From NCBI GenBank assembly GCA_020850615.1, contig JADZEI010000018.1, positions 62,001 through 126,000 of the forward strand: a DNA stretch of 64,000 nt, in the 5' to 3' direction. The translations under genes were made by a program, and so were the position numbers. Below, one piece after another: positions 6,532-27,159 of the stretch. This stretch comes from Dehalococcoidia bacterium. Its GTDB lineage: Bacteria; Chloroflexota; Dehalococcoidia; Tepidiformales; Tepidiformaceae. The notes beneath the pieces were generated by a model. It saw nothing but the letters and a program-made list of their open reading frames with translations. It was not told the DNA's origin and ran no database searches. Each line of letters opens with the position of its first letter. Position 1 is the first letter of the stretch.

Positions 6532-8073
6532 CTAGGGCCGCACGCCCGGGTACGACTTCGGACCCGCCGGGCGCGGCATGTTCCGGATCGCCACCTCGAG
6601 GTGCCGGATGATCAGGCGGCGCGTATCGCGCGGGTCGATGATCTCCTCGACCCCGAACGCGTCCGCCGTCGCGAACGGCGAGCGCAGCCGGAGCAGCCGC
6701 TCCTCGAGCTCCTTGCGGCGGGCCGCCGGGTCGGGTGCGTTCTCGATTTCGCGCCGGAAGGCCGCATCCACGCCGCCTTCGATCGGCAGCGAGCCCCACT
6801 CGCCGGAGGGCCAGGCGAGGCGCAGGTTCAGCCCCGAAGCGCGGCTCGTGGCATTGCCGGCGAGCCCGTAGCACTTCCGGACGACCACGGTGACCATCGG
6901 CACCGTCGCCTTGTAGGCCATCCAGAAGGCGCGGACGCCCCGGCGCAGCGCCCCGCTCTTCTCGGCGCCGGGCCCAATCATCACGCCCGGTACGTCGGCG
7001 AAGTTGATCAGCGGCAGGTTGAAGAAGTCGCACATCTCGATGAAGTGCGTCTGCTTGTCCGCTGCCGGGCCATCGATCGCGCCGCCAATCCACTTCGGGT
7101 CGTTCGCCAGCACACCGACCGCGTGGCCGTTCATCCGGGCGAACCCGACGACCGCCGAGCGCCCGTACCGCGGCTGGATTTCGAAGAAATCGCCGTCGTC
7201 GACGACGTGCGCGATCAGCTTGCGCACGTCGTACGGGCGGTTGCGCGATTCGGGCACGATCGACGCCAGCTCCTCGGCGCGGCGGTCCGGCGAATCCGTG
7301 GGCTCCTTGTACGGCGGCAGCTCGCACGCGTTCGCGGGAAGGAAGCTCAGGAACCGGCGCACCTGCGCGAAGCAGTCCGCCTCCGTCGGCGCGTCGTTAT
7401 GCGCGACGCCGCTCTGGTCGACGTGGATCGCTGCACCGCCCAGGTCTTCCTTGCTGATGTCGAGCCCAATCGCGCGCTTCACGACCGGCGGTCCCGCGGC
7501 GAAGAGCTGCCCCTGCCCGCGGACCATGCAGAGGAAGTGCGACAGCATCGCGTCGACCGCGGGCGCCCCGGCCGCGGGCCCAACGCACGCCCCGACCACC
7601 GGGACTTCCGAGAGCAGGTCGATGGGAAGCGACCAGTCGGACGAGTTCGCCAGGTAGGTGTGGCCGAGCTCCTCGACCTGCTGGATGTCGGCGCCGGCGC
7701 CTTCGAGGAATCGGATCAGCGGCACTCGATAGTGCCGCGCCATCTTCTCGGCGAAGCGCTGCTTCGGGCGGCCACCGGTCCCCCGGACCGTGCGGTCCTC
7801 GCCGCCGATGACCACATCGCGCCCGTCGATCTGCGCCAGGCCTATGATGTACCCCGAGGGCTTGAAGTCCTCGAGGATGCCGTCGATGTAGGTGGACTTG
7901 CCCGCGAGGCCGCCGACTTCGAGGAACGACCCCGGGTCGACAAGCAGGTCGACCCGCTCGCGGATGGTCAGCCGGCCGGCGTCGTGCTGTTGCTGGACCC
8001 GCTCGGGGCCGCCCATGTGCAGCGCCAGCTCCTGCCGGCGGCGGATCTCCTCAATCGCCTTTTCCCATCCCAT
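6532..8073 (-). CDS. Acyl-CoA carboxylase beta (carboxyltransferase) subunit, PccB family
   Basis: This 513-aa protein is a biotin-dependent carboxyltransferase of the propionyl-/methylmalonyl-CoA type. The family start (GWEKAIEEIRRRQ, then GRLTIRERVDLLVDPGSFLE) follows the ATG at 8073, preceded by GAGGTGAC. The crotonase-like N and C halves include EDRTVRGTGG, ISKEDLGGAAIH and FADVPGVMIG, and the end EEIIDPRDTRRLI is typical. It would transfer CO2 between carboxybiotin and an acyl-CoA. No biotin carboxylase gene is in the window; the 69-residue biotin carrier at 27936 is the only visible partner. It is the last gene of module A, 103 bases after the CoA-transferase pair. Confidence 0.85.
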   Translation of the reverse strand: MGWEKAIEEIRRRQELALHMGGPERVQQQHDAGRLTIRERVDLLVDPGSFLEVGGLAGKSTYIDGILEDFKPSGYIIGLAQIDGRDVVIGGEDRTVRGTGGRPKQRFAEKMARHYRVPLIRFLEGAGADIQQVEELGHTYLANSSDWSLPIDLLSEVPVVGACVGPAAGAPAVDAMLSHFLCMVRGQGQLFAAGPPVVKRAIGLDISKEDLGGAAIHVDQSGVAHNDAPTEADCFAQVRRFLSFLPANACELPPYKEPTDSPDRRAEELASIVPESRNRPYDVRKLIAHVVDDGDFFEIQPRYGRSAVVGFARMNGHAVGVLANDPKWIGGAIDGPAADKQTHFIEMCDFFNLPLINFADVPGVMIGPGAEKSGALRRGVRAFWMAYKATVPMVTVVVRKCYGLAGNATSRASGLNLRLAWPSGEWGSLPIEGGVDAAFRREIENAPDPAARRKELEERLLRLRSPFATADAFGVEEIIDPRDTRRLIIRHLEVAIRNMPRPAGPKSYPGVRP

Positions 8074-8176
8074 CGATGTCACCTCATCCCAGGTTCTCGC
8101 GGCGAGCCGCGGTCGCACACGCGGCGCGGTTGCCCGCGGCCACGGTTTCGTTCGTAGCGTGCCTTCGCGGCGAAGG

Positions 8177-9406
8177 CTAGCGGAGCGGCCGGTCCCCGAT
8201 GACGCGGGCTTCGCGCAGCTTCTCCATCTCCGAAGCTGTGAGCCCAAGCCGGCCGGCGAGCACCTCTTCGTTATGTTGCCCCAGCGTCGGCGCAGGCGCC
8301 TCCACCCGCGCGGGCGTGCGCGACGCCCGGATCCACGGCCCGGGGTAGAGATGGAATCCCACGTACTCCCGGTCCAGCCCGACGAAGAACTCCCGCTCGG
8401 CGAGGTGCGGGTCGGCGAGCAGGTCCGCGGGCGATGCCACCGGCGCCGCCGGCACCTTCGCCGCCTGGAGCCGCTGGACGAGCTCGGCACGGTTGCAGCC
8501 GGCTGTCACCGCCTCGATCGCGGCGTCGAGTTCCTGACGGTGCGCGAGCCGGGACGCCAGCGTCACGTATTGCGGCGCGCGCAGCGCCTCGCTGCCCAGC
8601 GCGTCCACCAGCGCCTGCCACTGCTCGTCCGTCACGGCGGCGATGGTGACCCAGTCGTCTTCGGCATCCGTGCGATAGCACCCGTGGGGCGCGACGGTGC
8701 GACTGGCGTTGCCCATCCGCGGGGGCGGCGTGCCGGTCACCTGCGTCTCGATCAGCGCCGGTGCGACGAGCTGCGTGCCGGCTTCGATGTGCGAGACCTC
8801 GATGTGCTGGCCGCGGCCGGTGCGGCGCCGCATACGCAGGGCAGCGAGCAGCGCGTACGTCGCGTGCAGCCCGATCACGGGGTCCCAGGACGTGCCCTGG
8901 ATGCGGGGCGGCCCACCCTCGTACCCGGTGAGCCCCTGGACGCCGCACATCGACTCCACCGTCGTGCCGAGCGCCGGCAGGTCGCTCCACGAGGTGTCAC
9001 TCCCATACGCGGGCATCGACACACTGATGATTCGCGGGTTCACGGCCGCGAGGTCGGCGTGCTCGAGGCGGAGCTGCTTCACGACATGCGCCGTGAAGTT
9101 CTCGATGAACACGTCCGCTTCCGCGACCAGCCGCAGGAGCAGCTCCCGCCCCTGCTCGGAGGCGAGATCGAGCGTGACGTCCTTCTTGTTGCGGTTGATG
9201 CCGTTGAAGAACCAGGAGCGCTCGTGGGTGAGCCCGTCGTCGACGCCGGCCGCGGAGCCGCGCCACCAGTCCAGCCGCTGGATTGACTCGACCTTCACGA
9301 CGTCCGCGCCGAAGTCACCGAGGAGCACGCCGGCCATCGGCCCGGCCCAGCCCTGCGAGATGTCGACGACCTTGACCCCTTCGAGTGCCGCGCGCGGAGC
9401 CGCCAT
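8177..9406 (-). CDS. Family III CoA-transferase (CaiB/BaiF), catalytic-Asp-containing partner
   Basis: This 409-aa protein is a CaiB/BaiF/formyl-CoA-transferase family enzyme that moves CoA between carboxylic acids. It opens with LEGVKVVDISQGWAGPMAG, then GADVVKVES and NRNKKDVTLDL. The Asp that forms the aspartyl-CoA anhydride aligns at Asp175 in GTSWDPVIG. Its start overlaps the stop of the upstream CoA-transferase by one base, so the two are co-translated. Because that partner lacks the Asp, the two may form a heteromer with a single type of active site, as known for benzylsuccinate CoA-transferase BbsEF. The substrate is unknown. Confidence 0.85.
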   Translation of the reverse strand: MAAPRAALEGVKVVDISQGWAGPMAGVLLGDFGADVVKVESIQRLDWWRGSAAGVDDGLTHERSWFFNGINRNKKDVTLDLASEQGRELLLRLVAEADVFIENFTAHVVKQLRLEHADLAAVNPRIISVSMPAYGSDTSWSDLPALGTTVESMCGVQGLTGYEGGPPRIQGTSWDPVIGLHATYALLAALRMRRRTGRGQHIEVSHIEAGTQLVAPALIETQVTGTPPPRMGNASRTVAPHGCYRTDAEDDWVTIAAVTDEQWQALVDALGSEALRAPQYVTLASRLAHRQELDAAIEAVTAGCNRAELVQRLQAAKVPAAPVASPADLLADPHLAEREFFVGLDREYVGFHLYPGPWIRASRTPARVEAPAPTLGQHNEEVLAGRLGLTASEMEKLREARVIGDRPLR

Positions 9407-10596
9407 CACAGCACCCCCTGTTCGCGCAGCGCCGTGACTGCCCCGGGTTCGAGCCCGATCGCCGCGAACAGCTCCGCGTTGGCAGACCCGGTATCGGGCG
9501 CAGCTTCGGCACGCCACGCGCCCTCGCCGAACCGGATGGCCGGCCCGGGGAAGCGAAGCCCGGCGAACGGCCCCTCCGTCTGTTCGACGTAGAAGTCGCG
9601 CTCGCGGTGGGGCGGCAGTTCGAGGATTTCGGCCATGTCCGGCACGGCTGCGAACACGAGCCGCTCCTTCGCGCAGGCTTCGAACAGCTCCCAGCGCGGC
9701 TTGTCCTTAAGCCAACCGGTGATGAGCTCCTTGAGGACGACGCGGTTCTGGACACGGAGGTCCGGCGTCTGGAAGCGCGGGTCGTTCGCCAGTTCGTCTC
9801 CGCCGATGACGCGGAAGAACTCGATCGGCCGGAAGCCGACCTGGAACTGCACGTAGCCATCGGCGCAGGGATAGATCGCGGCCAGCGGATTGTCGCCGTA
9901 GAGGTCGCCGCAGCGGTGGCGGTGCGAACCGGCGTAGCTGAAGTGCAGCGTATCCAGCGGGATCGTCCCGGCCGCGGTCTCGAGCTCGCTCACCTCGATG
10001 AGCTGCCCGAAGCCGTGCCGTTCCTTCGCTTCGAGGCCCACCAGCGCGCCGATCGCCGCCGAGGTGCCGGCGAGATAGCTGATGTAGGGCGCGCCCGGGT
10101 AGAGCGGCGCCTTGTCCGGGTCGCCCATAGGGTAGGTCCAGCCGCCGAGCGCGGCCATCGTCAGCGGCACGTGAACGTCGCCGGCGTATGGCCCGGTGAG
10201 CCCGCACGGCGTGATGCACACCTCGACGAGCTGCTCGTGCTCGCCGTCCGCCGGCATGCCCAGTGCCTCGCGCCCCGCGGCATCGAGCGAGTGGACGAAC
10301 ACGTCCGCGGTTTCGAGCAGGCGATGGAGGATGGCCGCGCCGTCCGCGGTCGTCCAGTCCAGCGTGACGCTCTGCTTGGACGTGTTGAGGAAGGCGAACA
10401 GCCCGCCCGCGTCGGACCACGCCCCGCCGGCCGGCGCAGGCGGGTGCTGGCGGAGCGCGTCGCCGCCCGGGCGCTCCACCTTGATCACGGTGGCGCCGTA
10501 GTCGGCGAGGAGCTTGCCGCAGTAGCCCGCGCCGATCGTGTCGCCGAGCTCGATGACGGTGATGCCCGAGGTAACGCCCTCGGAGACGGATGTCAC
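9406..10596 (-). CDS. Family III CoA-transferase homologue lacking the catalytic Asp
   Basis: This 396-aa CaiB/BaiF-family protein (GITVIELGDTIGAGYCGKLL, then GATVIKVERPGGD) is the upstream member of a CoA-transferase pair. At the position of the catalytic Asp it has Ser173, in PGAPYISYLAG, where active members read G-x-P-x-x-D-x-x-x-G. It is therefore probably not active alone. The GTG start at 10596 lies in a GTGA overlap with the preceding permease stop; longer in-frame extensions show no family similarity. The stop shares one base with the next CoA-transferase start. A structural or regulatory subunit of a heteromeric transferase is the simplest reading. Confidence 0.8.
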   Translation of the reverse strand: MTSVSEGVTSGITVIELGDTIGAGYCGKLLADYGATVIKVERPGGDALRQHPPAPAGGAWSDAGGLFAFLNTSKQSVTLDWTTADGAAILHRLLETADVFVHSLDAAGREALGMPADGEHEQLVEVCITPCGLTGPYAGDVHVPLTMAALGGWTYPMGDPDKAPLYPGAPYISYLAGTSAAIGALVGLEAKERHGFGQLIEVSELETAAGTIPLDTLHFSYAGSHRHRCGDLYGDNPLAAIYPCADGYVQFQVGFRPIEFFRVIGGDELANDPRFQTPDLRVQNRVVLKELITGWLKDKPRWELFEACAKERLVFAAVPDMAEILELPPHRERDFYVEQTEGPFAGLRFPGPAIRFGEGAWRAEAAPDTGSANAELFAAIGLEPGAVTALREQGVL

Positions 10597-11510
10597 AGGT
10601 TCGCCCTCCGGTTGCGCAATCGCGGGTCGAGGATATCTCGCAGGGCGTCGCCAAGGACATTGAACGCGAGCACCGCGAGGAAGATCGCGACCCCCGGGCC
10701 CACCGCCATCCACATCTGCTGTTGCAGGTACGGGAAACCGTTCTGAAGCATCGAGCCCCAGGCGGGCGTCGGCGGCTGCACGCCGAGCCCGAGGAAGCTC
10801 AGCGACGCCTCCGTGAGGATGGCGAACGCCAGGCCGAGCGAGCACTGCACGATGACCGCGGGGATCGTCGCCGGGAACACGTGTACGGCCATGAGGCGCA
10901 GGTTGCTCGCGCCGAGGCTCCGCGCCGCGAGCACGTAGTCGAGCTCCCGTGCGGCCAGCGCTTCGCCGCGGACCAGCCGGGCATAGCCCGGGGCCGCGAT
11001 CAGCCCGATCGCGAACATCGCGTTCCAGATGCCCGCCCCCAGGGCCGAGATCAGCGCGATCGCCAGCAACAGCGGCGGCACAGCGATGACGACATCGACC
11101 ATGCGCATGAGCAGCGTGTCCGTGAGCCCGCCGCGGAAGCCGGCGGCGAGGCCGATTGGGACGCCCACGATGAACGCCATCGTCACCGAGACCAGGCCGA
11201 CGAACATCGAGATCCGCGCCCCATAGATGACGCGGCTGAACACGTCCCGGCCGATCGGGTCGGTCCCGAGCCAGTGGTCGGCGGAAGGATTCGCCCGGAC
11301 GGCGTAGAGGTCCTGCACATCCGGGTCGTCGAGCGGCAGGATCGGCGCCGTCGCCGCGAGCAGCACGAGCAGGATGATGACGGAGCCCGCGATGCGGATC
11401 GTGGGGTCGCGCAGGACGCGCCCCAGGACGGGTGGGATGCGGCGGCGTTGCGGCGCGCGCAGCCCGGCGCCGGAAAGCGAATCCGCGGCCTTGCTCCCCT
11501 GCGCACTCAC
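10593..11510 (-). CDS. ABC transporter permease, DppC/OppC type
   Basis: This 305-aa membrane protein has about six transmembrane segments, the first near residues 38-58 (IRIAGSVIILLVLLAATAPI). It carries the N-terminal OppC-type segment with HWLGTDPIGRDVFSRVIYGA and the cytoplasmic EAA loop EALAARELDYVLAARSLGAS that docks on the ATPase. With the DppB-like protein upstream it should form the channel of an oligopeptide/nickel-type importer. The start is GTG at 11510. It overlaps the following CoA-transferase by 4 bp, which ties transport to CoA activation. No ATPase gene accompanies it. Confidence 0.88.
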   Translation of the reverse strand: MSAQGSKAADSLSGAGLRAPQRRRIPPVLGRVLRDPTIRIAGSVIILLVLLAATAPILPLDDPDVQDLYAVRANPSADHWLGTDPIGRDVFSRVIYGARISMFVGLVSVTMAFIVGVPIGLAAGFRGGLTDTLLMRMVDVVIAVPPLLLAIALISALGAGIWNAMFAIGLIAAPGYARLVRGEALAARELDYVLAARSLGASNLRLMAVHVFPATIPAVIVQCSLGLAFAILTEASLSFLGLGVQPPTPAWGSMLQNGFPYLQQQMWMAVGPGVAIFLAVLAFNVLGDALRDILDPRLRNRRANL

Positions 11511-11531
11511 AGCTGGTTCTCCCGCACGGCG

Positions 11532-12476
11532 TCAGGCATACCGGATCCTCGGGTTGACGTAGGCATAGAGCAGGTCCACCAGCAGGCTGATGGTCAGGAC
11601 GCCGGTGCCGATGAGCAACACCACCGCCTGGATCGTCGGGCTGTCGTGCCCCGTGACGGCCGTGAGCGCGAGGCGGCCCAGCCCCGGCAGGCCGAACACG
11701 GATTCGATGATGATCGTGCCGCCGAGCAACGCGCTGAGCTGGAGGCCCAGCACCGTCAGCGTCGGGATCATCGCGTTGCGCAGCGCGTGCCGCACCACCA
11801 CGGTGAACTTGCGCAGGCCCTTCGCCCGGGCCGTGCGCACGTAGTCCTCGGCGAGGACGCCGACCATGCTGGTGCGCATCATCCGCGCGATGATCGCGGT
11901 CGGCGTCAGCACCAGCGTCGCGGCCGGCAGGATGACGTGCCGGATGTGCTCGACCGGGTCCTCGCTGAACGGGATCCAGCCAGTCGCCGGCAGCCAGTGC
12001 AGCTTCACCGAGAAGAACAGCACGAGCAGCGTGGCGAGGAAGAAGTTCGGCAGTGCTACGCCGGCCACGGCGAACACCATGGCCAGGCGGTCGACGATGC
12101 TGCCCGGCCGCACCGCAGCGATGACCCCCAGCGGGATGCCGAGCAGCGTCGCCACGACGAGCGCCACGAGCGCGAGCTCCAGCGTGACCGGGAACCGATC
12201 CTGGAGCTGCTGGGTGATCGGCTGGCGGTTTACGTAGGAGCGGCCGAAGTCGCCCTGCGCGGCGTTGCCGAGCCAGTCGAGATAGCGGACGACCATCGGG
12301 CGGTCGAGACCGAGCTCCTGTTCCACCTGCCGTTTCGCCTCCGGGTTCGCGTTCTCCCCGAGGATGGCGCCCGTCGGGTCGCCGGGCACCACGGAGTTCA
12401 ACACGAACGCGAAGATCGTGAGCAGGAGGAGCAGGGGCACGATCAGGAGGACACGCCTCAAGATATACGCGGTCAC
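11532..12476 (-). CDS. ABC transporter permease, DppB/OppB type
   Basis: This 314-aa inner-membrane protein begins ILRRVLLIVPLLLLLTIFAF, the usual first helix of DppB/OppB permeases, followed by the periplasmic region PGDPTGAILGENANPEA. The EAA loop is LAEDYVRTARAKGLRKFTVV and the family end LLYAYVNPRIRYA is intact. It pairs with the DppC-like permease 21 bases downstream. The start is the GTG at 12476, 25 bases after the binding-protein gene stop. The substrate is not necessarily a peptide: in this neighbourhood an organic acid or amphipathic compound is more likely, but this is inference. Confidence 0.88.
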   Translation of the reverse strand: MTAYILRRVLLIVPLLLLLTIFAFVLNSVVPGDPTGAILGENANPEAKRQVEQELGLDRPMVVRYLDWLGNAAQGDFGRSYVNRQPITQQLQDRFPVTLELALVALVVATLLGIPLGVIAAVRPGSIVDRLAMVFAVAGVALPNFFLATLLVLFFSVKLHWLPATGWIPFSEDPVEHIRHVILPAATLVLTPTAIIARMMRTSMVGVLAEDYVRTARAKGLRKFTVVVRHALRNAMIPTLTVLGLQLSALLGGTIIIESVFGLPGLGRLALTAVTGHDSPTIQAVVLLIGTGVLTISLLVDLLYAYVNPRIRYA

Positions 12477-12501: not shown

Positions 12502-14181
12502 CTAGCCGTCGAGCCAGACGTCGCCGACGCGCATGTAGGTGTCCCAGCCGACCTGCAGGTTCTTCACCTTCGTCTTCATCGGGACAAGGATGTCGACGTG
12601 GACGTTCGGGATCCGGGGGATGCCGAGGTCGAAGATCATGTCCTGCGCCTGCCAGTACAGGTCCTTGCGCTTCGCCTGGTCCGTCTCCGCCGCCGCCTGG
12701 TCGATGAGCTGGTCCAGCGCATCGCTCTTGAAGCGGTGGTAGTTGAACTGGCCGGCCGAATGGAAGTTCGGGCGGAAGATGCTGTCCGGATCCGGGCTGT
12801 ACTGGGGCGTGAACGACGGCGTCGCCTGGAAGTCGCCGTCGTACAGGTACTGGGTGCCCGCGGTCGCCGGCAGCACCTCGATCGTGACGTCGATCCCGTA
12901 CGGCTTGACCATCTGCTTGATCGTCTCGGCGCGTTCCGTGGAGCCGGCGAGCTTGAAGGTGAAGGCGAAGCCGCTCGGGCTGCCACCCTTCTGGAGGTGC
13001 TCCTTCACCTTGGCCTCGCGCTCGGCCTTCGGCAGGTTGAAGCCCTTGAAGTTCGGGTTGTATGCCCAGGTCGCCGGGTTGATCGGGCCGCCGGCCGGCT
13101 TGCCGAAGCCGCCGTGGTTGCCAGCGAGGATCGCGTCGCGGTCGAGTGCGTAGCCCAGCGCCTTGAGCAGGTCCGCGTTGTCGAACGGCGCCTTGCCGCG
13201 GTTGAGCCGGAACTCGGTGAACGAGTGGCTCGGCAGCTGGAGCACTTCCACGCCCGAGATCGCCTTGAGCTGGATGATCTCGCCCGCCGGCGCGCTGATG
13301 CTGTAGTGGATGATGTCGACTTCGCCCGCCTGCATCGCGGTCACGAGCGCGGCACCGGTGGCGACGATCTTGTACTCGATGCCGTCCATGTGCGGGCCCT
13401 TGCCCGCGGCCGTGCCCCAGTACTCCTTGTTCGCGGTCGTCGTGATGCGGCTGTCGAGCGCCACCTGGTCGATCTTGTAGGGGCCCGTGCCGACCGGCTT
13501 GCTGTTGAAGTCCTGACCGAGCTTCTCGATCGCGTCCGGCGACGGCATCGCGCCCGCGATCGTGGCCATGTTCGCGACGATCGGGCCGTACTGCGGCTGC
13601 TTCAGCTTGAAGACGACCGTCGTCTCGTCCGGTACGGTGACCGTCTCGACCTGCGACCACTGGCTATAGACGCGGCTCTTGGTGCCGAGCCCGAGCGTCC
13701 GCTCGACGTTCCGCTTCACCGCCGTGGCGTTGAACGGCGTCCCGTCGTGGAACTTCACGTCGGAGCGCAGCTTCAGCGAAACCTGGCCGTCCTTCGCTTC
13801 GTAGGAAGTCGCAAGGTTCGGCTTCACGGCGCCGGTGTTGTCGGTCACGAAGAGGGTGTCGTAGAGCGCGAAGAGCAGCGCCCAGTCGGCCGCAGAGGTG
13901 CTGGCGTTCGGTTCGAACTGGCCGAGCATGGTGCCGCCGCCGACGACGAGCTTGCCGCCCTTCTTCGCCTGGCTCGTCGGGGAAGCCGCGCTGGTGCCGG
14001 TCGCCGCGGTCGTACCGGTGGAGGTGGCGCCGCCATCGCTCGTGTCGTCGTCATCGTCGTCGCCACAGCCCACGGTGGCCGCGGCGGCCAGCCCGAGCGC
14101 GGCGAAGCTCGCGCCACCAATGAGACGGCGGCGGCCCAGCCGGCGCGTGCTCAGCCTGGTCCAGTAGTTGTCCCGTTCCAT
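12502..14181 (-). CDS. ABC transporter substrate-binding lipoprotein (SBP family 5) with Tat signal, module A
   Basis: This 559-aa protein is a family 5 (DppA/OppA-like) extracellular solute-binding protein. Its N terminus has a twin-arginine region (Arg13-14 and Arg17-19 in TRRLGRRRLIGG), a hydrophobic stretch and a lipobox ending at Cys39 (ATVGC), followed by six Asp residues and a Ser/Thr-rich linker. Export folded through Tat and lipid anchoring are therefore likely. The fold shows VSLKLRSDVKFHDGTPFNAT and the PRIPNVHVDILVPMKTKVKN end. The start at 14181 has GGGAAGGGAAC upstream. It has a near-consensus promoter (14261-14289) with a TetR-type palindrome at the transcription start. Confidence 0.88.
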   Translation of the reverse strand: MERDNYWTRLSTRRLGRRRLIGGASFAALGLAAAATVGCGDDDDDDTSDGGATSTGTTAATGTSAASPTSQAKKGGKLVVGGGTMLGQFEPNASTSAADWALLFALYDTLFVTDNTGAVKPNLATSYEAKDGQVSLKLRSDVKFHDGTPFNATAVKRNVERTLGLGTKSRVYSQWSQVETVTVPDETTVVFKLKQPQYGPIVANMATIAGAMPSPDAIEKLGQDFNSKPVGTGPYKIDQVALDSRITTTANKEYWGTAAGKGPHMDGIEYKIVATGAALVTAMQAGEVDIIHYSISAPAGEIIQLKAISGVEVLQLPSHSFTEFRLNRGKAPFDNADLLKALGYALDRDAILAGNHGGFGKPAGGPINPATWAYNPNFKGFNLPKAEREAKVKEHLQKGGSPSGFAFTFKLAGSTERAETIKQMVKPYGIDVTIEVLPATAGTQYLYDGDFQATPSFTPQYSPDPDSIFRPNFHSAGQFNYHRFKSDALDQLIDQAAAETDQAKRKDLYWQAQDMIFDLGIPRIPNVHVDILVPMKTKVKNLQVGWDTYMRVGDVWLDG

Positions 14182-18677: not shown

Positions 18678-19098
18678 CGCAGGGCTCCCCGGGCGGGATG
18701 TCTACGGTCGTGGCGATGTGGTTGCGTGCGAACAGCGTGCCGTCCTCCCCGCGCGCTTCGTAGGCGACCACCAGGTAGTGGCGGCCGCGCTTCAGGTACT
18801 TCTCTTCGAGCACCCCGGTGACATGCACGGGCGCGTCGACCGGGATCGGCGCGAAGAGCTCGAGGCGGTGCTTCGCGTGCATGCCGGTGAACGGCGGCAG
18901 CACCTGCGCCAGCAGCGCCGAGTAGTCGGACGTGATGATCGTGGGCGGCACAATAGGCCCGTCGAAGGGCGACGCGCCCGTGTACCACGGGTGGTCGATG
19001 CCCACCGCATCGCAGTACGCCGCCACGGCTTCGGCGGTCACCCGGTAGGTCACGGGTTCGAAGACGTGCCCGGCCGGGAGCGTGTGCCAGGTGAGCAT
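18667..19098 (-). CDS. MaoC-like hot-dog domain protein (N-terminal type)
   Basis: This 143-aa protein begins MLTWHTLPAGHVFEPVTYRV and contains YCDAVGIDHPWYTGASPFDG and VDAPVHVTGVLEEKYLKRGR, a pattern of FAS1/MaoC N-terminal hot-dog domains. It pairs with the next gene (18285), as in mycobacterial HadA-HadB-type hydratases, where one chain is structural and the other catalytic. The ATG at 19098 shares a base with the preceding stop (TGATG); a GTG three bases earlier is an equally possible start. Confidence 0.72.
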   Translation of the reverse strand: MLTWHTLPAGHVFEPVTYRVTAEAVAAYCDAVGIDHPWYTGASPFDGPIVPPTIITSDYSALLAQVLPPFTGMHAKHRLELFAPIPVDAPVHVTGVLEEKYLKRGRHYLVVAYEARGEDGTLFARNHIATTVDIPPGEPCDDL

Positions 19099-19802
19099 CA
19101 CGGCCGGGCCATCCCGCGCTGCTTGCCGCGAAACGCCATGATCTCGCCGAGCACTTCCCGCATGTCCCCCGCCGCGACCGCAGGCGTGGACTCCACCGGC
19201 ATCGGCGCGAGCCCCGAGGCCGCCGGCACCGCCCACCGCCGGCCCGGGATGAAGCCGCGGGAGCGATCGAAGGCGTCAATGAGCCACCGCCGCACCAGTG
19301 TCGCCGTGGGGCCGGAGCGGCCCGCATCGAGCTCGGCGCAGCGGATCATCCCGAGCGCCGCGCCGGCCGCGCGCACATCGGGGACGAGCCGGGTCACGAG
19401 GGCGCGGCCCTCGGCGGGCAGCGCCGGCCAGATCGCCTGCGCCGCCGGGATGGTCAGCCGGTCATCGCCGAGCGAGAAGCACGCCGCCAGCAGGACCGCG
19501 TCGAGCGTGCCGCGGTGCACGGCGCGCGGGGCGAGGCGGCGCAGCTCGTGGAGCGAGCCCTCCAGCGACCCGGACGTGCGCGAGCCGAGCACCAGCAGCG
19601 CCTTCGCGGCCAGCATCCGCAGCGTCGGGTCGGGCTCGCGGTAGAGCACCTCGCGCAGCCGCGTGGTCTCGCCGCGCCCGTGGGCCGCGGCGGCGAGGAG
19701 GTCGCCCAGCTGGTGCCAGCGCTCGCTCCATTCGGGCAGTACTTGCAGCGGCGGGGCCACCGGGAATTCGTGTCGCTCGCGGGGCATGGCTGGCGCGGTC
19801 AT
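19098..19802 (-). CDS. Unrecognised helical protein inside module B
   Basis: I do not recognise this 234-aa protein. It is rich in Leu, Ala and Arg and looks wholly alpha-helical, with repeated stretches such as PTLRMLAAKALLVLGSRTSG and RGTLDAVLLAACFSLGDDRL that suggest HEAT-like helical pairs. There is no signal peptide or membrane segment. It is fixed between a carboxyltransferase (4-bp ATGA overlap at its start) and a hot-dog pair (TGATG at its end), so it is probably a subunit or scaffold of the enzymes around it. An internal ATG at 19787 is an alternative start. Confidence 0.6.
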   Translation of the reverse strand: MTAPAMPRERHEFPVAPPLQVLPEWSERWHQLGDLLAAAAHGRGETTRLREVLYREPDPTLRMLAAKALLVLGSRTSGSLEGSLHELRRLAPRAVHRGTLDAVLLAACFSLGDDRLTIPAAQAIWPALPAEGRALVTRLVPDVRAAGAALGMIRCAELDAGRSGPTATLVRRWLIDAFDRSRGFIPGRRWAVPAASGLAPMPVESTPAVAAGDMREVLGEIMAFRGKQRGMARP

Positions 19803-21271
19803 CGGCGTGCGACCGCGCGGAGCGCGCGAATGACCGTCGCGCGCGTCTCCGCGGGCTCGATGACGTCGTCCACGGAGGCGAGGTTGGCCGCTTCCCAGGG
19901 CTCGGCCCGCTCGCTCCACTCCGCGTTCAGGGTGGCGAGCAGCTCCTCGCGTTCCTGGTCGTTCGCCGCTTTCGCCAGCTTCTTCGCGTAGACCAGGTTG
20001 ATCCCCGCTTCGGGCCCCATGAACGCAATCCGCGCGCTCGGCAGCGCGGCCACGTAGTCGGCGCCCCAGCCCGGGCCCGACATCGCGAAGTACGCCAGCC
20101 CATACGACTTCCGCAGCACCACCGAGACCTTGGGGATCGTGGCCGAAGCGAGCGTCCGGATGTACTCCATCGCGTTCACGAGCAGCGCATCCGCCTCCGC
20201 CTGGCGCCCGATCAGGAACCCGGGCACGTCGTGCAGGAACAGCATCGGGATGCGCAGGCGGTCGCACTGCTGGATGAACTTCATCCCCTTGCGGGCGGAC
20301 TCGGCGTCGAGCACGCCGCCGCGCACCATCGGCTGGTTCGCGAAGACCGCGACCGCCTGGCCGCCGATGCGCGCGAAACAGCCCACCGCCGTCGTCCCGT
20401 ATCCCTGCCAGAGGTAGAGCGGCTCGCAGTCGGCGTCGACGATCGCCCGGATGACGCGCTTCACGTCGTAGGCCCGGTTGTAGGAAGCGGGGAGGATGGT
20501 CGCGATCTCGCCGGTCGCGCGGTCATCCGGGTCCGCCGTCGGCCGGCACGGTTCGAGGATGAAATCGAGCAGCGTGCGCACCGTGGCGATGACGTCCGCC
20601 TCGGAGTCCTCGACCCGCGATACCTGGCCGTTCGCCTCGTGCACGTGGGGGCCGCCGAGCTCCTTGCCGGTGATCTCCTCGCCGAGCGCGGCCTTGATCA
20701 GCGGCGGGCCGGAGACCGCGAAGCAGGCATCCCGCGCCATGAACGAGAAGTCCGAGAGCCCGAGCTTGAACGACGGGTCGCCGTACATCTCGCCCATGCA
20801 GCAGGCGATGAGCGTGAACGGCCGGTCGCGCTTCGCGAGCTTGTAAAGGAACGACTCGTTGGCGATGGCGCCGGCGTACCCGAGCGACGAGCCCATCATG
20901 TCGGGGATGCGGCCGCCGCCGCCTTCGCCGAAGGTGATGATCGGGAAGCCGCACTTCGCCGCCTCGTCCAGCACGCGCATCTGCTTCGCCCCGGCCGCGT
21001 GGCCGCCGCTGCCGGCGAGCACCTTGCCATCGAGCGACATCACGCCGACGCGGTGGCCGCCGACCGTGCCGTAGCCCGCGATCACCGCGTCCGAAGGGCT
21101 CTTCTCCGCGCGGCCGTGGTTCATGTCCCGGGCGAGCATGCCCACTTCGAGGAACGAACCCGGGTCGAGCAGCTCGAGCACGCGGTCGCGGGCGCGTGTG
21201 TCCGGCGAGCCGTCCTTCCGCGCGAAACTGCGCTCGAGCTCGAGGCGCGATGGTCCTTCGGTTGTCGTCAT
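19799..21271 (-). CDS. Acyl-CoA carboxylase beta-type carboxyltransferase, divergent
   Basis: This 490-aa protein belongs to the carboxyltransferase family but has an unusual N terminus (ELERSFARKDGSPDTRARDR rather than the GRLTxRERI block) before LLDPGSFLEVGMLARDM. The crotonase-fold signatures GEGGGGRIPDM, ITGKELGGPHVH and FLHDVPGFLIGRQAEAD are present, so both acyl-CoA and carboxybiotin half-sites look intact. GGAGGTCACC precedes the start. It follows the permeases of module B and is translationally coupled to the unknown helical gene. Substrate unknown. Confidence 0.82.
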   Translation of the reverse strand: MTTTEGPSRLELERSFARKDGSPDTRARDRVLELLDPGSFLEVGMLARDMNHGRAEKSPSDAVIAGYGTVGGHRVGVMSLDGKVLAGSGGHAAGAKQMRVLDEAAKCGFPIITFGEGGGGRIPDMMGSSLGYAGAIANESFLYKLAKRDRPFTLIACCMGEMYGDPSFKLGLSDFSFMARDACFAVSGPPLIKAALGEEITGKELGGPHVHEANGQVSRVEDSEADVIATVRTLLDFILEPCRPTADPDDRATGEIATILPASYNRAYDVKRVIRAIVDADCEPLYLWQGYGTTAVGCFARIGGQAVAVFANQPMVRGGVLDAESARKGMKFIQQCDRLRIPMLFLHDVPGFLIGRQAEADALLVNAMEYIRTLASATIPKVSVVLRKSYGLAYFAMSGPGWGADYVAALPSARIAFMGPEAGINLVYAKKLAKAANDQEREELLATLNAEWSERAEPWEAANLASVDDVIEPAETRATVIRALRAVARR

Positions 21272-21293
21272 GGTGACCTCCAGGGGCGTGGGG

Positions 21294-22181
21294 TTAGCGG
21301 CGCCGCCGGACCGGGTCGAACCAGTCCTGGAGCGAGTCGCCGACGATGTTGATTGCGAGGACGAGGATGAAGATGGCGGCCGCGGGGAAGACCAGCATCC
21401 ACCAGGCGATGGCCATGAAGTCGCGGCCGTCCTTGACCATCAGGCCAAGCGAGGTGTTCGGCGACTGCACGCCGAATCCCAGGAAGCTGATCGATGCCTC
21501 CAAAATGATCGCCTGGCCGAACTGCAGCACCGCAAGCACGACGAGCGTGTTCGCGATGTTCGGGAACGTGTGGCGCAGCGCGATCCGCAGCGTCCCAACC
21601 CCGACGGAGCGCGCCGCGAGGATGTACTGCTGCTGGCTCACGACACGGATCTCCGCCCGGGACATGCGCGCGTACTGCACCCAGCCGCCGATGCCAAGCA
21701 CGATGATCGTGGTCCCGAGGCCGGGGCCAATCACGAACGCCAGCACGAGCACGAGCAGGATGCCCGGCACCGACATCTGGAAGTCGACAAGCCGCATGAT
21801 GACCCACTCGGCGATGGACCCGGCATAGCCCGCCATCATCCCGAGCGTGATGCCGATGCTCGCGCTGACGAGCACCGCCAGGAACCCGACCATGAGCGAG
21901 GTGCGCAGGCCAAAGAGCAGCCGGCTCAGCAAGTCCCGGCCGATCTGGTCCGTGCCGATGATGGGCGAGCTCGACCACGACGGCCCCAGCAGCGCGTCGA
22001 CCACGACCGCCTGGGCCGGGTCCTTCGGCGCGAGGACGTTCGCGAGCACGGCCACCAGTGCCGCGATCGCGAGCACCGCGAGCGCGACGAGCGTCCGGAT
22101 CCGGAAGCGAGGCACACGCCGCGGCGGGCGGGCTGCGTCCGCGTCGGGCGCGCCGGCGGTGGTAGCGGTCGCGGCGCTCAT
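21294..22181 (-). CDS. ABC transporter permease, DppC/OppC type, module B
   Basis: This 295-aa membrane protein has the OppC N-terminal helix (IRTLVALAVLAIAALVAVLA), the segment SPIIGTDQIGRDLLSRLLFG, and an EAA loop EIRVVSQQQYILAARSVGVG. It ends in the family pattern DSLQDWFDPVRRRR. Its start overlaps the DppB-like stop by 4 bp (ATGA), so the two permeases are made together. It is the counterpart of the permease at 10593 but only distantly similar, so the two modules are not recent duplicates. Confidence 0.87.
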   Translation of the reverse strand: MSAATATTAGAPDADAARPPRRVPRFRIRTLVALAVLAIAALVAVLANVLAPKDPAQAVVVDALLGPSWSSSPIIGTDQIGRDLLSRLLFGLRTSLMVGFLAVLVSASIGITLGMMAGYAGSIAEWVIMRLVDFQMSVPGILLVLVLAFVIGPGLGTTIIVLGIGGWVQYARMSRAEIRVVSQQQYILAARSVGVGTLRIALRHTFPNIANTLVVLAVLQFGQAIILEASISFLGFGVQSPNTSLGLMVKDGRDFMAIAWWMLVFPAAAIFILVLAINIVGDSLQDWFDPVRRRR

Positions 22182-23104
22182 GCGCGGCCACCGGCCCGGT
22201 AGCGCGGGTCAGCCCACGAATAGGCGATGTCGGTCAGCGCGTTGATCGCGATGAAGATGCTCGACAGTACGAACACGCCGCTCTGGACCACCGCGAAGTC
22301 GCGCGCCTGGACCGCGTCGACCATGAGCCGGCCGATGCCGGGCCACGCGAACACCGTCTCAATGATCACCGTGCCGCCGAGGAAGTACTGCCACTGGAGC
22401 CCGATGATCGTGAGGATCGGCACCGCCGCCGCGCGCAACGCGTGCGTCGTCAGCACCGTCCGCGAGCTCAGGCCCTTCGCCCGCGCTGTGCGGATGTAGT
22501 CCTGCGTCAGCACGTCCGAAACGGCCGCCCGGACGATGCGCGTCTGCGACGCGATCGGGAAGGCCGCAAGCGTGACCGCCGGCAGGATGTACGACTTCCA
22601 CCCCCCTTCGCCGCCGACCGGGAGCCACTGCAGCTTGACCGCGAACAGCCACACCAGCAGCACCGCGAGCACGAAGTTCGGCATCGCCTGCCCTGTCGTC
22701 GTCGCGCCGCCGATGATGCCGTCCAGCGCGCTGCCCCGGCGCGCCGCCGCGAGGATACCGAGCGGCAGGGACACGCTCACCGTCAGGAGGAAGGCCACGC
22801 TCGCGAGCCGGAAGGTCGCCGGGAGCCGGTCGAACACCATGCCCAGCGCGCCCTCGCTCCAGCGGTGCGAAAAGCCGAGGTCGCCGCGCATGAGGTCACC
22901 GAGGAAGGCGACGTATTGCTGCGGCAGCGGCTTGTCCACCCCGAGCTCGGCTTCGAGGGCCGCCTTCTGCTCGTCCGTGTAGTCGAACGGGAGCAGGTAC
23001 GACGTCGGGTCACCGGTGATGCGGATGACGAAGAAGACGAACGTCAGGACCGCCAGGATCGTCAGGATCGCGCCGCCGAATCGCCGGATGACTGTCGCCG
23101 TCAT
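22178..23104 (-). CDS. ABC transporter permease, DppB/OppB type, module B
   Basis: This 308-aa inner-membrane protein starts with IRRFGGAILTILAVLTFVFF and contains ITGDPTSYLLPFDYTDEQ, the EAA loop LTQDYIRTARAKGLSSRTVL and the ending TDIAYSWADPRYRAGG. It sits between two genes with 4-bp ATGA overlaps: the CoA-transferase at 23101 upstream and the DppC-like permease downstream. The insertion of two CoA-transferase genes between binding protein and permease is unusual for this transporter family. Confidence 0.87.
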   Translation of the reverse strand: MTATVIRRFGGAILTILAVLTFVFFVIRITGDPTSYLLPFDYTDEQKAALEAELGVDKPLPQQYVAFLGDLMRGDLGFSHRWSEGALGMVFDRLPATFRLASVAFLLTVSVSLPLGILAAARRGSALDGIIGGATTTGQAMPNFVLAVLLVWLFAVKLQWLPVGGEGGWKSYILPAVTLAAFPIASQTRIVRAAVSDVLTQDYIRTARAKGLSSRTVLTTHALRAAAVPILTIIGLQWQYFLGGTVIIETVFAWPGIGRLMVDAVQARDFAVVQSGVFVLSSIFIAINALTDIAYSWADPRYRAGGRA

Positions 23105-24336
23105 GGCGCGACCGCCGGGAGCGGGTGCTCCTGCACGACCCCCGCCGCCACGAGCTCGTCGACCGCGGCGTCGCTGTAGCCGAGAAGCCCGGTGAGGACC
23201 TCGCGCGTGTGTTGCCCGTGGAGCGGCTCGGGGCGCTGCGGGGCCCGGCCGAACGCCGTGGATGCGAACAGCCCCGTCGGGACCGGCACCTTCCCGGCGA
23301 ACGCATCGGGCACGTCCTGGACGAGGCCGGCTTCGCGCGTCGCCGGGTCCGCGATCGCCTCGCGGACGGAGCGCACCGGCGCGACGCCGATCCCGGCAGC
23401 GCCGAGCTCGTCGAGCACTTGGCCGCTCCCGCGCGACGCGCACCACGCCTCGATGATGGCGTACACCTGCCCGGCATGAGCCATGCGCTCGATGAACCCG
23501 AGCCCGGCGATGCCCTTGAGCTCGACGATCTCGCAGAGCGCGCGCCAGGCCGCCGGTGAGACCGCGCGGATGTACACCCACTCGCCGTCGGCGCAGACGA
23601 AGTTGCCGGACGCGACGCGTGCGTGGTCGCCGCTCGTGCGCTTTTCGCGGCCATCGATCGCGCCCGCGCCGCTGAGCACTTCGGGCAGCTCGAGCACGTT
23701 CGTGGCCATGAGCCCTTCGAGGATGGAGAAGTCTACATGGGTCGAGGCACCCGTGTTGCGCGCCTTGAGCAGCCCTGCCGCGATGGCGGCGACGCAGTGG
23801 ATCGATGCGTTGGTGTCGCCGAAGGAGCAGCGCTCCCACCCGGGCACCTCGCCGTCGTGGTCGGCGGCCATGAGCCCGCTGAGCGAGGTGGTGCTGCGCA
23901 CTTCGCCGGTCATCCGCGAGAACGGGCCCGTCTGGCCCCACCCGGAGATGGACACGTACACGACGTCGGGCCGCACCGCGCGGATGTGCTCGTAACCAAG
24001 GCCGAGCTTGTCGACGACGCCCGGGCGGAAGTTTTCGAGCACCACCTGCGACTGCGCCGCGAGCTGCATCGCGATCCGGTGGCCCGCCTCGCTCGCGAGG
24101 TTGACGCCGATGCCGCGTTTACCGAGGTTCTGTTGCTTGAAGTAGCCCGACTGCCCGCCCGTGAACCGGTATGGGAGGCCGCGCGTGGTGTCGCCGACCG
24201 GGATCGCCTCGACCTTGACGACGTCGGCGCCGGCCTGGGCGAGCACCCGGCTCATGTGCGGGCCCGCCAGCACCGCCGTGAAGTCGAGGACCTGGACGCC
24301 CTTCAGCCACTCAGCGAACAGCGATGTGAACGGCAT
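23101..24336 (-). CDS. Family III CoA-transferase (CaiB/BaiF), catalytic Asp present
   Basis: This 411-aa CoA-transferase reads LKGVQVLDFTAVLAGPHMSR, GADVVKVEAIPVGDT and NLGKRGIGVNL. Asp174 in CSFGDTNAS holds the catalytic position. The ATG at 24336 lies 26 bases inside the preceding gene's coding sequence, and the stop overlaps the permease gene by 4 bp. With the upstream homologue that lacks the Asp, it forms the same kind of pair seen in module A (8177 and 9406), suggesting an alpha-beta CoA-transferase. Substrate unknown. Confidence 0.84.
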   Translation of the reverse strand: MPFTSLFAEWLKGVQVLDFTAVLAGPHMSRVLAQAGADVVKVEAIPVGDTTRGLPYRFTGGQSGYFKQQNLGKRGIGVNLASEAGHRIAMQLAAQSQVVLENFRPGVVDKLGLGYEHIRAVRPDVVYVSISGWGQTGPFSRMTGEVRSTTSLSGLMAADHDGEVPGWERCSFGDTNASIHCVAAIAAGLLKARNTGASTHVDFSILEGLMATNVLELPEVLSGAGAIDGREKRTSGDHARVASGNFVCADGEWVYIRAVSPAAWRALCEIVELKGIAGLGFIERMAHAGQVYAIIEAWCASRGSGQVLDELGAAGIGVAPVRSVREAIADPATREAGLVQDVPDAFAGKVPVPTGLFASTAFGRAPQRPEPLHGQHTREVLTGLLGYSDAAVDELVAAGVVQEHPLPAVAP

Positions 24337-25462
24337 CGAGGTCCTCCCGGTAGTCTGTCGTGGCCCAGCCGGCGCACAGCGTCTCGAACAGGGCGCACGC
24401 CTGTGCCGCGCCCACCGGTTCGAGCGGGTCGCGCTCGCCGTTGATGACGTACGGCGAGGCGAGCCGGTTGCCGGCGACGATCCCCCGCGACGCGACCTGC
24501 TCGTTCTGGACGAGCTCGGCCGGTTCGAGCACCGGCGCCGACGGGATGCGCTGGCCCCAGAGCCGCCGCATGGCCTCGTCGCGCGGGTGCGCCAGGCAGA
24601 ACGCGTCGAGCAGGTCGCGCAGCTCCTGGCCGAACTCGTAGCGGGCGAACGTCTCGATGAAGCGCGGGTCGTCTTCGAGGTCCGGCCGGCCGATCGCGGC
24701 ACAGGTCCGCTGCCACACGCCGCGGCCATAGATGTTGATGACCACCGCGCCGCCATCGGCGCAGTAGTACGGCGCGGCGAGCGGACTGCCGACCATGTCC
24801 GGTGACGAGCTGTCGAACGCCTGCGAGAGCAGCAGCGTCTGCACGGCAATCTCGATCATGCTGAAGGTGGCTTCGTACACGCCGACGTCGACGCGTACGG
24901 GTTCGCCGGTGACGGTCCGCCGGTACAACGCGAGGGCGCCCACGGCTGCAGCGTGCGCCCCCGCGTTGACCTCGGCGATGTCGAAGCGGAGGCCCTCGGG
25001 TGGACGGCCCATGCCGTACACATCCCGGAGGCCCGTGGCCGCCCCGGCGGATTCGTCGGCGCGCAACATCATGCCGGTGGGAGGGGTTACCGCGGGCACG
25101 ATGCGCACGACCGACGGCAGTCCTGCCCCATCGAGGGCGAGGGCTGGTTCGATCAGGTGGGCGAGGGTGCCATCGCCCACCAGGGTGAGGTCGGAGGCGG
25201 CCATGAGCCGGGCGAGCGCCGCCGCCGGTCCGCCACCCAGCACGGCGCGGTGCTTTGCGCCGTTCAGGTGGTACCAGCTCGCGGCCGCCCGGTGGCCGCC
25301 GAACGGTGAGCCATAACCGCGGACCCAGTCCGGCGCAGCGGCGTCTTCGAGCTTGAGGACGTGGGCGCCGAGGGATCGCAGGACGCGGCCCGCGTATCCC
25401 ACGGGCACCCCATCGCCCACTTCGAGGACGGTCACGCCGGAAAGTGGTCCGTGTGCGGTCAT
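24311..25462 (-). CDS. Family III CoA-transferase homologue with Glu at the catalytic position
   Basis: This 383-aa CaiB/BaiF-family protein (LSGVTVLEVGDGVPVGYAGR, then GAHVLKLEDAAAPDW) has Glu164 in LRFDIAEVNAG where the catalytic Asp is expected. It starts in an ATGA overlap with the binding-protein stop and overlaps the following Asp-containing CoA-transferase by 26 bp. The resemblance of its GDGVPVGYAGRVLRSLGA start to the module A protein at 9406 (GDTIGAGYCGKLLADYGA) suggests these two non-catalytic chains belong to one subfamily. Confidence 0.78.
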   Translation of the reverse strand: MTAHGPLSGVTVLEVGDGVPVGYAGRVLRSLGAHVLKLEDAAAPDWVRGYGSPFGGHRAAASWYHLNGAKHRAVLGGGPAAALARLMAASDLTLVGDGTLAHLIEPALALDGAGLPSVVRIVPAVTPPTGMMLRADESAGAATGLRDVYGMGRPPEGLRFDIAEVNAGAHAAAVGALALYRRTVTGEPVRVDVGVYEATFSMIEIAVQTLLLSQAFDSSSPDMVGSPLAAPYYCADGGAVVINIYGRGVWQRTCAAIGRPDLEDDPRFIETFARYEFGQELRDLLDAFCLAHPRDEAMRRLWGQRIPSAPVLEPAELVQNEQVASRGIVAGNRLASPYVINGERDPLEPVGAAQACALFETLCAGWATTDYREDLDAVHIAVR

Positions 25463-27159
25463 GCGGGGATCAGGTCCTCCAGGCGCAGCACCGGGTTCGA
25501 GCCGGCCCGCGGGGTCCAGTTCGCCACGACGCCCGTGCGGATGGCGTAGGCCTCCTGGAGGAGGACCAGCCAGAGCGCGGGCGCTTCGTCGTACATCAGG
25601 TCGAAGGCCTTCTTGAGCGTGGTCGTGCGCTCTTCCGGATTGAACATCGTCCGGGCCTGGTTGATCAGCGTGTCGAACTCGCTGGCGCAGTACTGGCCGT
25701 ACCGGGCCGCGCACGTCCACTTCGAATCAACGCCCTGGAACGGGTCCGGGTACCCGGCCGTCGATGCCCAGGAGAAGATCATGCCCCCGTCCGGGAACGG
25801 AGGGGTGTCGTTGCGAAGCCGCGCAAGCCACGCGTTGTACTCCTCCGTCCGCTCGTCCACCTGCACGCCCGCGTCGCGGAGGTTGCTGGCGACCGCGGCG
25901 CTGAGCGACGCGAGGCCCGGGAGCCGGCCACCGCCGAGATTGTACTGGATGAGCGACAGGTTGCTCGCACCGGCCGCCGCCAGCAGGTCCTTCGCCTTCT
26001 TCAGGTCGAAGTCGTAGCTCTTCTTGATGTCCCACGGCTGCGTCGGATTGGTGACGGCATATGGCTGCGCCATTTCCGACGTGTAGACGTTTTCCGCAAG
26101 TGCCTTCTTGTCGACGGCATAGTTGAGCGCCTGGCGCACCCGCTTGTCGCGAATGAGCTTCGTCATTTCGCTCGCAGTGACGTCCGGGTAGTCCTTAATC
26201 GCGAGCGCGTAGTGCGTGTCGATGTTCGAGTTCTGGATGATCGTCTTGACGCCCGAAACGCCCCTCAGGACGCGGAGCTGCTCGGCGGCGACCGCCTGCA
26301 TCACGTCGACATCGCCGACCTGCACCATCTGCAGGCGGGAGGTGCCGTCCGGGACGATCTTCATCTCGGCGGTCTTGAAGCCGCCCTTGCCGCGGAAGTA
26401 CTCGTCGTTGCGCTCGAAGTTCGCGCCCGTACCGACGGTGCGGTCCTTGAGCTTGTAGGCGCCCGTGCCGATCGGTGCCTTGCCGAAGCCGTCGGCGCCC
26501 GTCGATTCCGTGTACGCCTGGGGCACGATGAAGAGGCCGCCGAAGCCGCCAAGGATGAACCCGGCGTCGGGCTTCTTCATCTTGTAGATGAAGGTGTTGT
26601 CGTCCGGCGTTTCGACCTTGTCGACGTTCGCGAACGCGGTCTTGGTGCCCTTGTTATCGGGGCTCAGCAGCCGGGTGAAGCTGTAGGCGACGTCCTTCGA
26701 GGTGAGTGGGTCGCCGTTGTGGAACTTGACGCCGCTGCGGATCTTGAACGTGATCTGCGTGCCGTCGGGCGTGACTTCGTAGCTTTCGGCGAGGGCCGGG
26801 GTCGAAGCACCCTTGTTGTCCCACTCGTAGAGCTGGTTGAACAGCTGGAACAGGTAGAAGTTGTCGACGCCGCCGGTCGACTGGTGCGGGTCGGCGACGG
26901 TCGGCTCGGAACCGAGGGCGACGCGGACCCGCTCGCCTTCCTTCGTGGTGCGCGTGGTGGTGGCGGAGGCGGACTGCACGGGCGCCTCGCCGCTGACGAT
27001 CGTCTGCGTCGCCGTGACCTCGTCGCCGGTATCGTCGTCGTCATCGTCGCCGCAACCGACGGCCGCAAGCGCGAAACCGCCGGCGATGGCGCCCGTTGCG
27101 CCGCCGAGCATCCGCCGGCGCGAAAGGCGGGCATTCACCCTGGACCAGTAGTCAGACAT
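25459..27159 (-). CDS. ABC transporter substrate-binding lipoprotein (SBP family 5) with Tat signal, module B
   Basis: This 566-aa protein is the second family 5 binding protein. It starts MSDYWSRVNARLSRRRMLGG with a twin-arginine motif at 14-16, a hydrophobic helix and a lipobox ending at Cys36 (ALAAVGC), again followed by six Asp. The core shows QITFKIRSGVKFHNGDPLTS and KDVAYSFTRLLSPDNKGT. I used the ATG at 27159, preceded by GGGAGGGG; an in-frame ATG at 27171 is possible. It leads module B and is transcribed from a TTGACA/TATAAA promoter with a TetR-type palindrome downstream of the -10, divergent from the tetR gene. Confidence 0.88.
   Translation of the reverse strand: MSDYWSRVNARLSRRRMLGGATGAIAGGFALAAVGCGDDDDDDTGDEVTATQTIVSGEAPVQSASATTTRTTKEGERVRVALGSEPTVADPHQSTGGVDNFYLFQLFNQLYEWDNKGASTPALAESYEVTPDGTQITFKIRSGVKFHNGDPLTSKDVAYSFTRLLSPDNKGTKTAFANVDKVETPDDNTFIYKMKKPDAGFILGGFGGLFIVPQAYTESTGADGFGKAPIGTGAYKLKDRTVGTGANFERNDEYFRGKGGFKTAEMKIVPDGTSRLQMVQVGDVDVMQAVAAEQLRVLRGVSGVKTIIQNSNIDTHYALAIKDYPDVTASEMTKLIRDKRVRQALNYAVDKKALAENVYTSEMAQPYAVTNPTQPWDIKKSYDFDLKKAKDLLAAAGASNLSLIQYNLGGGRLPGLASLSAAVASNLRDAGVQVDERTEEYNAWLARLRNDTPPFPDGGMIFSWASTAGYPDPFQGVDSKWTCAARYGQYCASEFDTLINQARTMFNPEERTTTLKKAFDLMYDEAPALWLVLLQEAYAIRTGVVANWTPRAGSNPVLRLEDLIPA

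Follow-up and report, generated by a model that had tools for sequence, protein, structure and literature searches.

The window analysed here is a 64,000-nucleotide stretch of a Dehalococcoidia bacterium of the Tepidiformaceae (GenBank assembly GCA_020850615.1, contig JADZEI010000018.1, positions 62,001 to 126,000), part of contig 18 of a draft genome of 4.17 Mb with roughly 70% G+C, and it carries two gene modules in which a peptide-type ABC importer adjoins CaiB-family CoA-transferases and a carboxyltransferase (CT). Gene models were drawn from codon-position G+C and families were called with Pfam, applying the model cut-offs. Module A (6532-14181, minus strand) reads SBP_5–DppB–DppC–CaiB–CaiB–CT. 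It begins with an SBP_bac_5 substrate-binding protein (SBP A; 12502..14181, PF00496 5e-68) with a Tat-type lipoprotein leader (RRRLIGG...GCG), which is followed by a DppB-like permease (11532..12476, PF00528 1.7e-40 and PF19300), a DppC-like permease (10593..11510, PF00528 3.4e-34), CaiB subunit 1 (9406..10596, PF02515 4.5e-67), CaiB subunit 2 (8177..9406, PF02515 4.9e-112) and a CT of the acyl-CoA carboxylase beta type (6532..8073, PF01039 5e-95). Module B (17228-27159, minus strand) reads SBP_5–CaiB–CaiB–DppB–DppC–CT–234-aa gene–hot-dog–hot-dog–CaiB. Its binding protein (SBP B; 25459..27159, PF00496 7e-70) has the same type of leader (RRRMLGG...GCG), and the genes after it encode a divergent CaiB subunit 1 (24311..25462, PF02515 2.9e-40), CaiB subunit 2 (23101..24336, PF02515 7e-84), DppB-like (22178..23104, PF00528 6e-41) and DppC-like (21294..22181, PF00528 1e-26) permeases and a CT (19799..21271, PF01039 2e-94). 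The Carboxyl_trans domain is full-length in both modules. The 234-aa product (19098..19802) matched no family in Pfam or NCBIfam and is predicted to be helical in a low-confidence model (pLDDT 61). The module ends with a FAS1-dehydratase-like hot-dog protein (18667..19098, PF13452 4e-4, just under the cut-off), a MaoC-like hot-dog protein (18285..18677, PF01575 6.5e-10) and a third CaiB (17228..18283, PF02515 3.5e-51).

An earlier note, made from the sequence, had described two modules with these parts, and Pfam places all of the named ones above cut-off apart from the sub-threshold hot-dog protein. It had also described the genes as joined by 4-bp overlaps, which holds for four junctions of module B, including SBP/CaiB, CaiB/DppB and DppB/DppC, but in module A only for DppC/CaiB; there the two CaiB genes overlap by 1 bp, and gaps of 25, 21 and 103 nt separate SBP from DppB, DppB from DppC and CaiB from CT. 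The gene spacing of both modules is operonic. No ATPase genes (DppD/DppF) are present within module A or module B. The two binding proteins share only 28% identity and stand far apart on the SBP tree, which rules out a recent duplication of the modules, as the note had argued.

The linkage of importer and CaiB recurs throughout this genome. Our genome-wide statistics are based on family searches and 40 fetched stretches, and the searches found about 30 SBP_5 places, about 70 CoA_transf_3 matches and 18 Carboxyl_trans matches. Of the 26 SBP clusters, 9 have a CaiB cluster no more than 5 kb away, where 2.6 were expected (shuffle P = 0.0007). Gene reading of the fetched stretches gave ten CaiB-linked importers, and CaiB is the immediate same-strand neighbour in nine of them (a simple gene-count model predicts 0.5-0.9). 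At least seven linked loci beyond modules A and B have the same kind of layout, such as SBP-DppB-DppC-[fused CaiB-CaiB]-ECH-LLM-ECH-CT-CT and SBP-CaiB-DppB-DppC (both C87), SBP-DppB-DppC-DppD-DppF-[fused CaiB-CaiB] (C22), DppB-DppC-DppD-DppF-ECH-SBP-CaiB-CaiB (C36), CaiB-CaiB-SBP-DppB-DppC-ACAD-ferredoxin-KorA (C9), LLM-ECH-[CaiB-CaiB]-SBP-DppB-DppC-DppD-DppF (C4) and SBP-biotin carboxylase-CT-DppB-DppC-CaiB (C4:289-297 kb), the last with its own biotin carboxylase in the operon. The CaiB-linked SBPs are only about 25% identical among themselves and are scattered over the SBP tree, so the association has been made or reshuffled repeatedly; with six label changes on the tree, a single clade of linked SBPs is ruled out. 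Other SBP_5 operons adjoin family I CoA-transferases or an apparent acyl-CoA ligase. At the locus L025 (C21:135001-154000) the importer linkage is similar but involves another CoA-transferase family: family I CoA-transferase genes and thiolase/ChsH2-like genes flank two SBP_5/DppBC sets, of which one is followed by DppD/F. At C36, CRISPR-Cas-like genes (Cas3-HD, helicase and Cas5-like starts, by eye) directly follow the CaiB pair (L003 13340-18000).

The earlier note had suggested looking for the permease–CoA-transferase adjacency in other genomes, and it is present in related genera and families, so the absence from relatives that the note had named as a refutation is not observed. CaiB was found close to 8 of 39 unselected SBP_5 stretches in four genomes of the same family and near 10 of 20 fetched loci holding the nearest homologues of SBP A or SBP B across the class (Fisher P = 0.035), a set that includes short contigs and in which two loci were accepted at a slightly greater distance. 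The order SBP–DppB–DppC–CaiB–CaiB was found again in L251, L258, L261 and L107, and its occurrences in other families of the class show about 33% identity. One relative (L252) merges the part lists of modules A and B as SBP–DppB–DppC–hot-dog–hot-dog–CaiB–CaiB, another (L257) has ECH placed between the permease and CaiB genes, and a member of another family (L110) reads DppB–DppC–SBP–CaiB–CaiB. In more distant bacteria, a Bosea plasmid carries a fused CaiB near SBP_5-permease-permease-ATPase-ATPase, and a Rhodococcus rhodochrous plasmid has the same importer and CaiB combination. A Rhodococcus qingshengii plasmid encodes a complete acyl-CoA degradation series (SBP-permease-permease-ATPase-ATPase-ACAD-ACAD-CaiB-CaiB-MaoC-MaoC-thiolase), and a Haematobacter plasmid (L281) combines SBP_5, Dpp permeases and ATPases, a single-chain biotin carboxylase-BCCP-CT and a fused CaiB pair. 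The Haematobacter plasmid, pOT1-2, is predicted to be conjugative and carries the full part list, so such modules may move between species. Other CaiB pairs adjoin Liv-type ABC or TTT transport systems; the common theme is an importer with a CaiB pair, and the class of importer is variable. No close orthologues of module A or B were found elsewhere, with best SBP identities outside this genome, among the matches listed, of 36% for SBP A and 32% for SBP B, and a best identity elsewhere of 38% for CaiB subunit 1 of module A. When CaiB subunit 2 of module A was searched against named genomes, only 3 of 80 loci had SBP_5/Dpp genes nearby, which indicates that this importer is not a general companion of CaiB relatives. 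Among named records, those nearest to the window's CaiB are assemblies of Chloroflexi, Dehalococcoidia and SAR202, interspersed with phyla further away, which makes a Dehalococcoidia-like Chloroflexota the probable host. Genomes G056 (contig C5:181290-193884) and G001 (contig C4:164332-175019) each hold a tandem array of five SBP_5 genes.

Two different CaiB subunits lie side by side in both modules, as they do in the heteromeric succinyl-CoA:benzylsuccinate CoA-transferase BbsEF (PDB 9fn0). Subunit 2 of module A has chain B of this enzyme as its best PDB match (9fn0_B, E 9e-64), and subunit 2 of module B has succinate-HMG CoA-transferase 9br7 (3e-52). In the 9fn0 alignments the position of the family's catalytic Asp is Asp in chain A and Gly in chain B, and the CaiB pairs of the genome mostly show the same arrangement, with Asp in the first subunit or domain and Gly in the second, although Glu, Asn, His, Ala or Pro takes the first place in a minority. 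The plasmid pairs also follow Asp/Gly, with some Glu and one Gly in the first position. Fused two-domain CaiB proteins of about 740-840 aa (L001, L002, L005, L007, L014, L015, L018, L019, L035, L036) usually carry Asp in domain 1 and Gly in domain 2; L014 and L007:17979 have Asp in domain 2. This Asp/Gly pairing offers a way to tell which CaiB genes form one enzyme. In module B the Asp is kept twice, in subunit 1, where it aligns with the catalytic Asp of 4ed9, and in the third CaiB, and subunit 2 has Val, not Gly. The pairs described here are distant in sequence from BbsEF and, unlike it, stand beside an ABC importer and in many cases form a single fused chain. Two further pairs were seen in the window. 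One (42035-44972, plus strand) reads Asn/Gly and encloses a 158-aa gene that shares 4-bp overlaps with both and has no Pfam family, with acyl-CoA dehydrogenase and 3-hydroxyacyl-CoA dehydrogenase genes nearby; the other (50445-52935, minus strand) departs from the Asp/Gly pattern in that both of its genes encode Asp.

The model of SBP A (pLDDT 78) shows a cluster-C fold with DppA, GbpA, AgaA, AapF and others as PDB matches, and the fold comparison does not discriminate the class of ligand. The permease pair, the fold and the domain families (SBP_bac_5 with two BPD_transp_1) are those of the Dpp/Opp dipeptide importers, whereas the partners here are CoA enzymes and the operons contain no DppD/DppF. 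In DppA, Asp408 (numbered as in the 1dpe alignment) is the residue that holds the amino terminus of the peptide. It is replaced by Tyr in SBP A, in a pairwise alignment to DppA, and by Thr in SBP B, in a genome-wide multiple alignment that is noisier at this place; in that noisy alignment Asp occupies the position in none of the ten CaiB-linked SBPs and in 2 of 30 SBPs overall. The missing Asp argues against ordinary peptides as ligands and would fit non-peptide acids. The genome encodes 13 oligo_HPY (Dpp ATPase) domains against about 24 permease pairs, and at least one orphan DppD/DppF pair (L040 7329-9342) has no permease nearby, so that the importers probably share their ATPases.

For the CT of module A the best PDB match is the propionyl-CoA carboxylase (PCC) beta chain 1vrg (338 bits). 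Where PCC beta has its GGA specificity motif, the three CTs of the window read GLA, and because these residues differ the acyl substrate of the CTs cannot be named. Actinobacterial acyl-CoA carboxylases have several beta subunits that share a few alpha subunits, and this genome resembles them in having about 16 CTs, closest to PCC beta, and three biotin carboxylases. The biotin carboxylase and BCCP genes lie outside modules A and B, and one of the three biotin carboxylases belongs to the sister module at C4.

Each module is probably an operon for the uptake-coupled CoA activation of a carboxylic acid. Since the layout of importer and CoA enzymes recurs in this genome and in distant bacteria, the "peptide" importers of this genome probably take up organic acids, which are joined to CoA on entry. 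In the predicted pathway, the Tat-exported family 5 lipoprotein would capture the acid outside the membrane, and the DppB/DppC channel, powered by shared DppD/DppF encoded elsewhere, would import it. Next, a BbsEF-like heteromeric class III CoA-transferase would move CoA to the acid from an endogenous donor, probably succinyl-CoA, with no ATP spent. The acyl-CoA would pass to the CT, which would use one of the genome's few biotin carboxylases in common with others, and in module B also to the MaoC-type hot-dog hydratases, with the products entering beta-oxidation.

Several observations weigh against this reading of the modules. The solved SBPs nearest in fold to SBP A are mostly peptide binders, and most SBPs that are not linked to CaiB also lack an equivalent of Asp408, so the loss of this residue is not specific to the linked set. 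CaiB lies nearby at only a minority of SBP_5 loci in the four same-family relatives, and transporter-free CoA-transferase pairs are common in the genome itself. The first of these points, together with membership of the SBP_5/DppBC family, favours ordinary uptake of peptides or amino-acid derivatives, with the CaiB adjacency as a by-product of some 70 CaiB genes in one genome. We regard this as improbable, because the clustering exceeds what gene density predicts, both in the shuffle test and in the nine same-strand operonic cases where fewer than one was expected, the gene order is kept across families and phyla, and the amine-binding Asp is lost. There is likewise only a slim chance that the CTs are decarboxylases and that imported dicarboxylates are decarboxylated after CoA activation, as in methylmalonyl-CoA or glutaconyl-CoA decarboxylation. 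Their best NCBIfam model is mmdA, far under its cut-off (358 of 998.8 bits), but their best structural matches are PCC beta chains, and OAD_beta, the membrane subunit of Na+-decarboxylases, is absent from the genome, which rules out a sodium-pumping form. With a biotin carboxylase also standing beside the CT in one sister module and in the Haematobacter cluster, the CTs are more likely to carboxylate the activated acid or a breakdown product than to act as decarboxylases.

A further difficulty concerns the transferase step of module A, whose pair reads Pro in subunit 1 and Gly in subunit 2, leaving the catalytic Asp in neither, unlike BbsEF. The pair of L261, which has the module A layout in another genus, is also Pro/Gly, so a sequencing error is unlikely. 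The earlier note had inferred from the coupling of permease and CoA-transferase that imported acids are directly converted to CoA esters; the coupling itself is real and recurs in the genome, the class and other phyla, but direct ester formation is doubtful for module A because no subunit of its pair bears the catalytic Asp. On sequence grounds this pair is not assignable to a BbsEF-type transferase, and it may work alongside an Asp-bearing CaiB, the nearest of which is the third CaiB of module B (17228-18283). A different chemistry is a minority possibility for the importer-linked pairs in general: they might act as isomerases, in intramolecular CoA migration, as DddD-like lyases or as racemases, or one subunit might be regulatory, and the module A pair might have no transferase activity of its own and depend on a third CaiB. 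The Pro/Gly pairs of module A and L261, the pairs with Glu, Asn, His or Ala in place of Asp, and the isomerases and racemases among the solved members of the CaiB family are consistent with it, whereas Asp in the first subunit of most pairs, as in BbsEF, and the two Asp-bearing CaiB proteins of module B argue for transferases. Tentatively, module A could represent a distinct, conserved class of Asp-less (Pro/Gly) CaiB heterodimers tied to a peptide-type importer and a CT, which would either carry out a CoA-ester reaction new to the family or pass the acid to a separate CaiB. For the modules as a whole, uptake-coupled CoA activation remains the reading that we prefer.

Operons that pair an importer with a CaiB-family CoA-transferase include caiTABCDE for carnitine, bai for bile acids and ddd for dimethylsulfoniopropionate. 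They and the TTT- or Liv-linked CaiB pairs resemble the present modules in setting an uptake gene beside a CoA-activating gene and downstream acyl-CoA enzymes, but their importers are of the BCCT, MFS, TTT or Liv-type ABC classes, whereas the modules here use a peptide-type SBP_5/DppBC ABC importer, exist in many paralogous copies and often lack their own ATPases. Landry et al. 2017 (PMC5395668) described an expansion of CaiB/BaiF proteins in the related SAR202 lineage and proposed that CoA attachment ties newly imported substrates into CoA pathways; in the accessible portion of that paper, linkage to ABC importers, subunit pairing and linkage to CTs are not described. The main text of Saw et al. 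2020 (PMC6946804) does not mention CaiB, COG1804, CoA transferase or transporter, and we found no literature naming COG1804 together with COG0747 in a search that mostly excluded subscription journals. With CaiB activation of imported acids already published for SAR202 and importer plus CoA-transferase an established operon theme, the earlier note's wording of an undescribed system was too strong. The SBP_5/DppBC variant of the known theme is real, conserved and useful for annotation. Routine annotation labels SBP_5/DppBC systems as importers of peptides or nickel, and the operon context in this genome and in CaiB-rich bacteria from three or more phyla suggests that many of them probably import carboxylic acids that are made into CoA thioesters. 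An importer together with its own CoA-transferase also provides concrete ligand screens for uncultured Chloroflexota, which are thought to consume recalcitrant organic matter.

Besides the missing ATPase genes, the earlier note had left several neighbouring genes unmentioned. A further CT upstream of module A (14331..15884, minus strand, PF01039 4.5e-108) is associated with it by position only. A lone CaiB (15973..17199, plus strand, PF02515 5e-96) lies convergently between the modules with Gly at the catalytic position, and its module membership is uncertain. Divergent from module B is a TetR gene (27313..27885, plus strand, PF00440 and PF17932), by position a probable regulator, and an HpaB-like flavin monooxygenase (28417..29853, plus strand, PF11794/PF03241), also divergent beside module B, reaches 211 bits with TIGR02309 against a cut-off of 480. 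Near the start of the window (395-6290, plus strand) are genes for 2-oxoacid dehydrogenase E1, E2 and E3, with a NAD-kinase-domain gene (2268-3533) inside the cluster, and on the same contig, a few kb before the window begins, another E1 gene adjoins an SBP_5 gene (L010).

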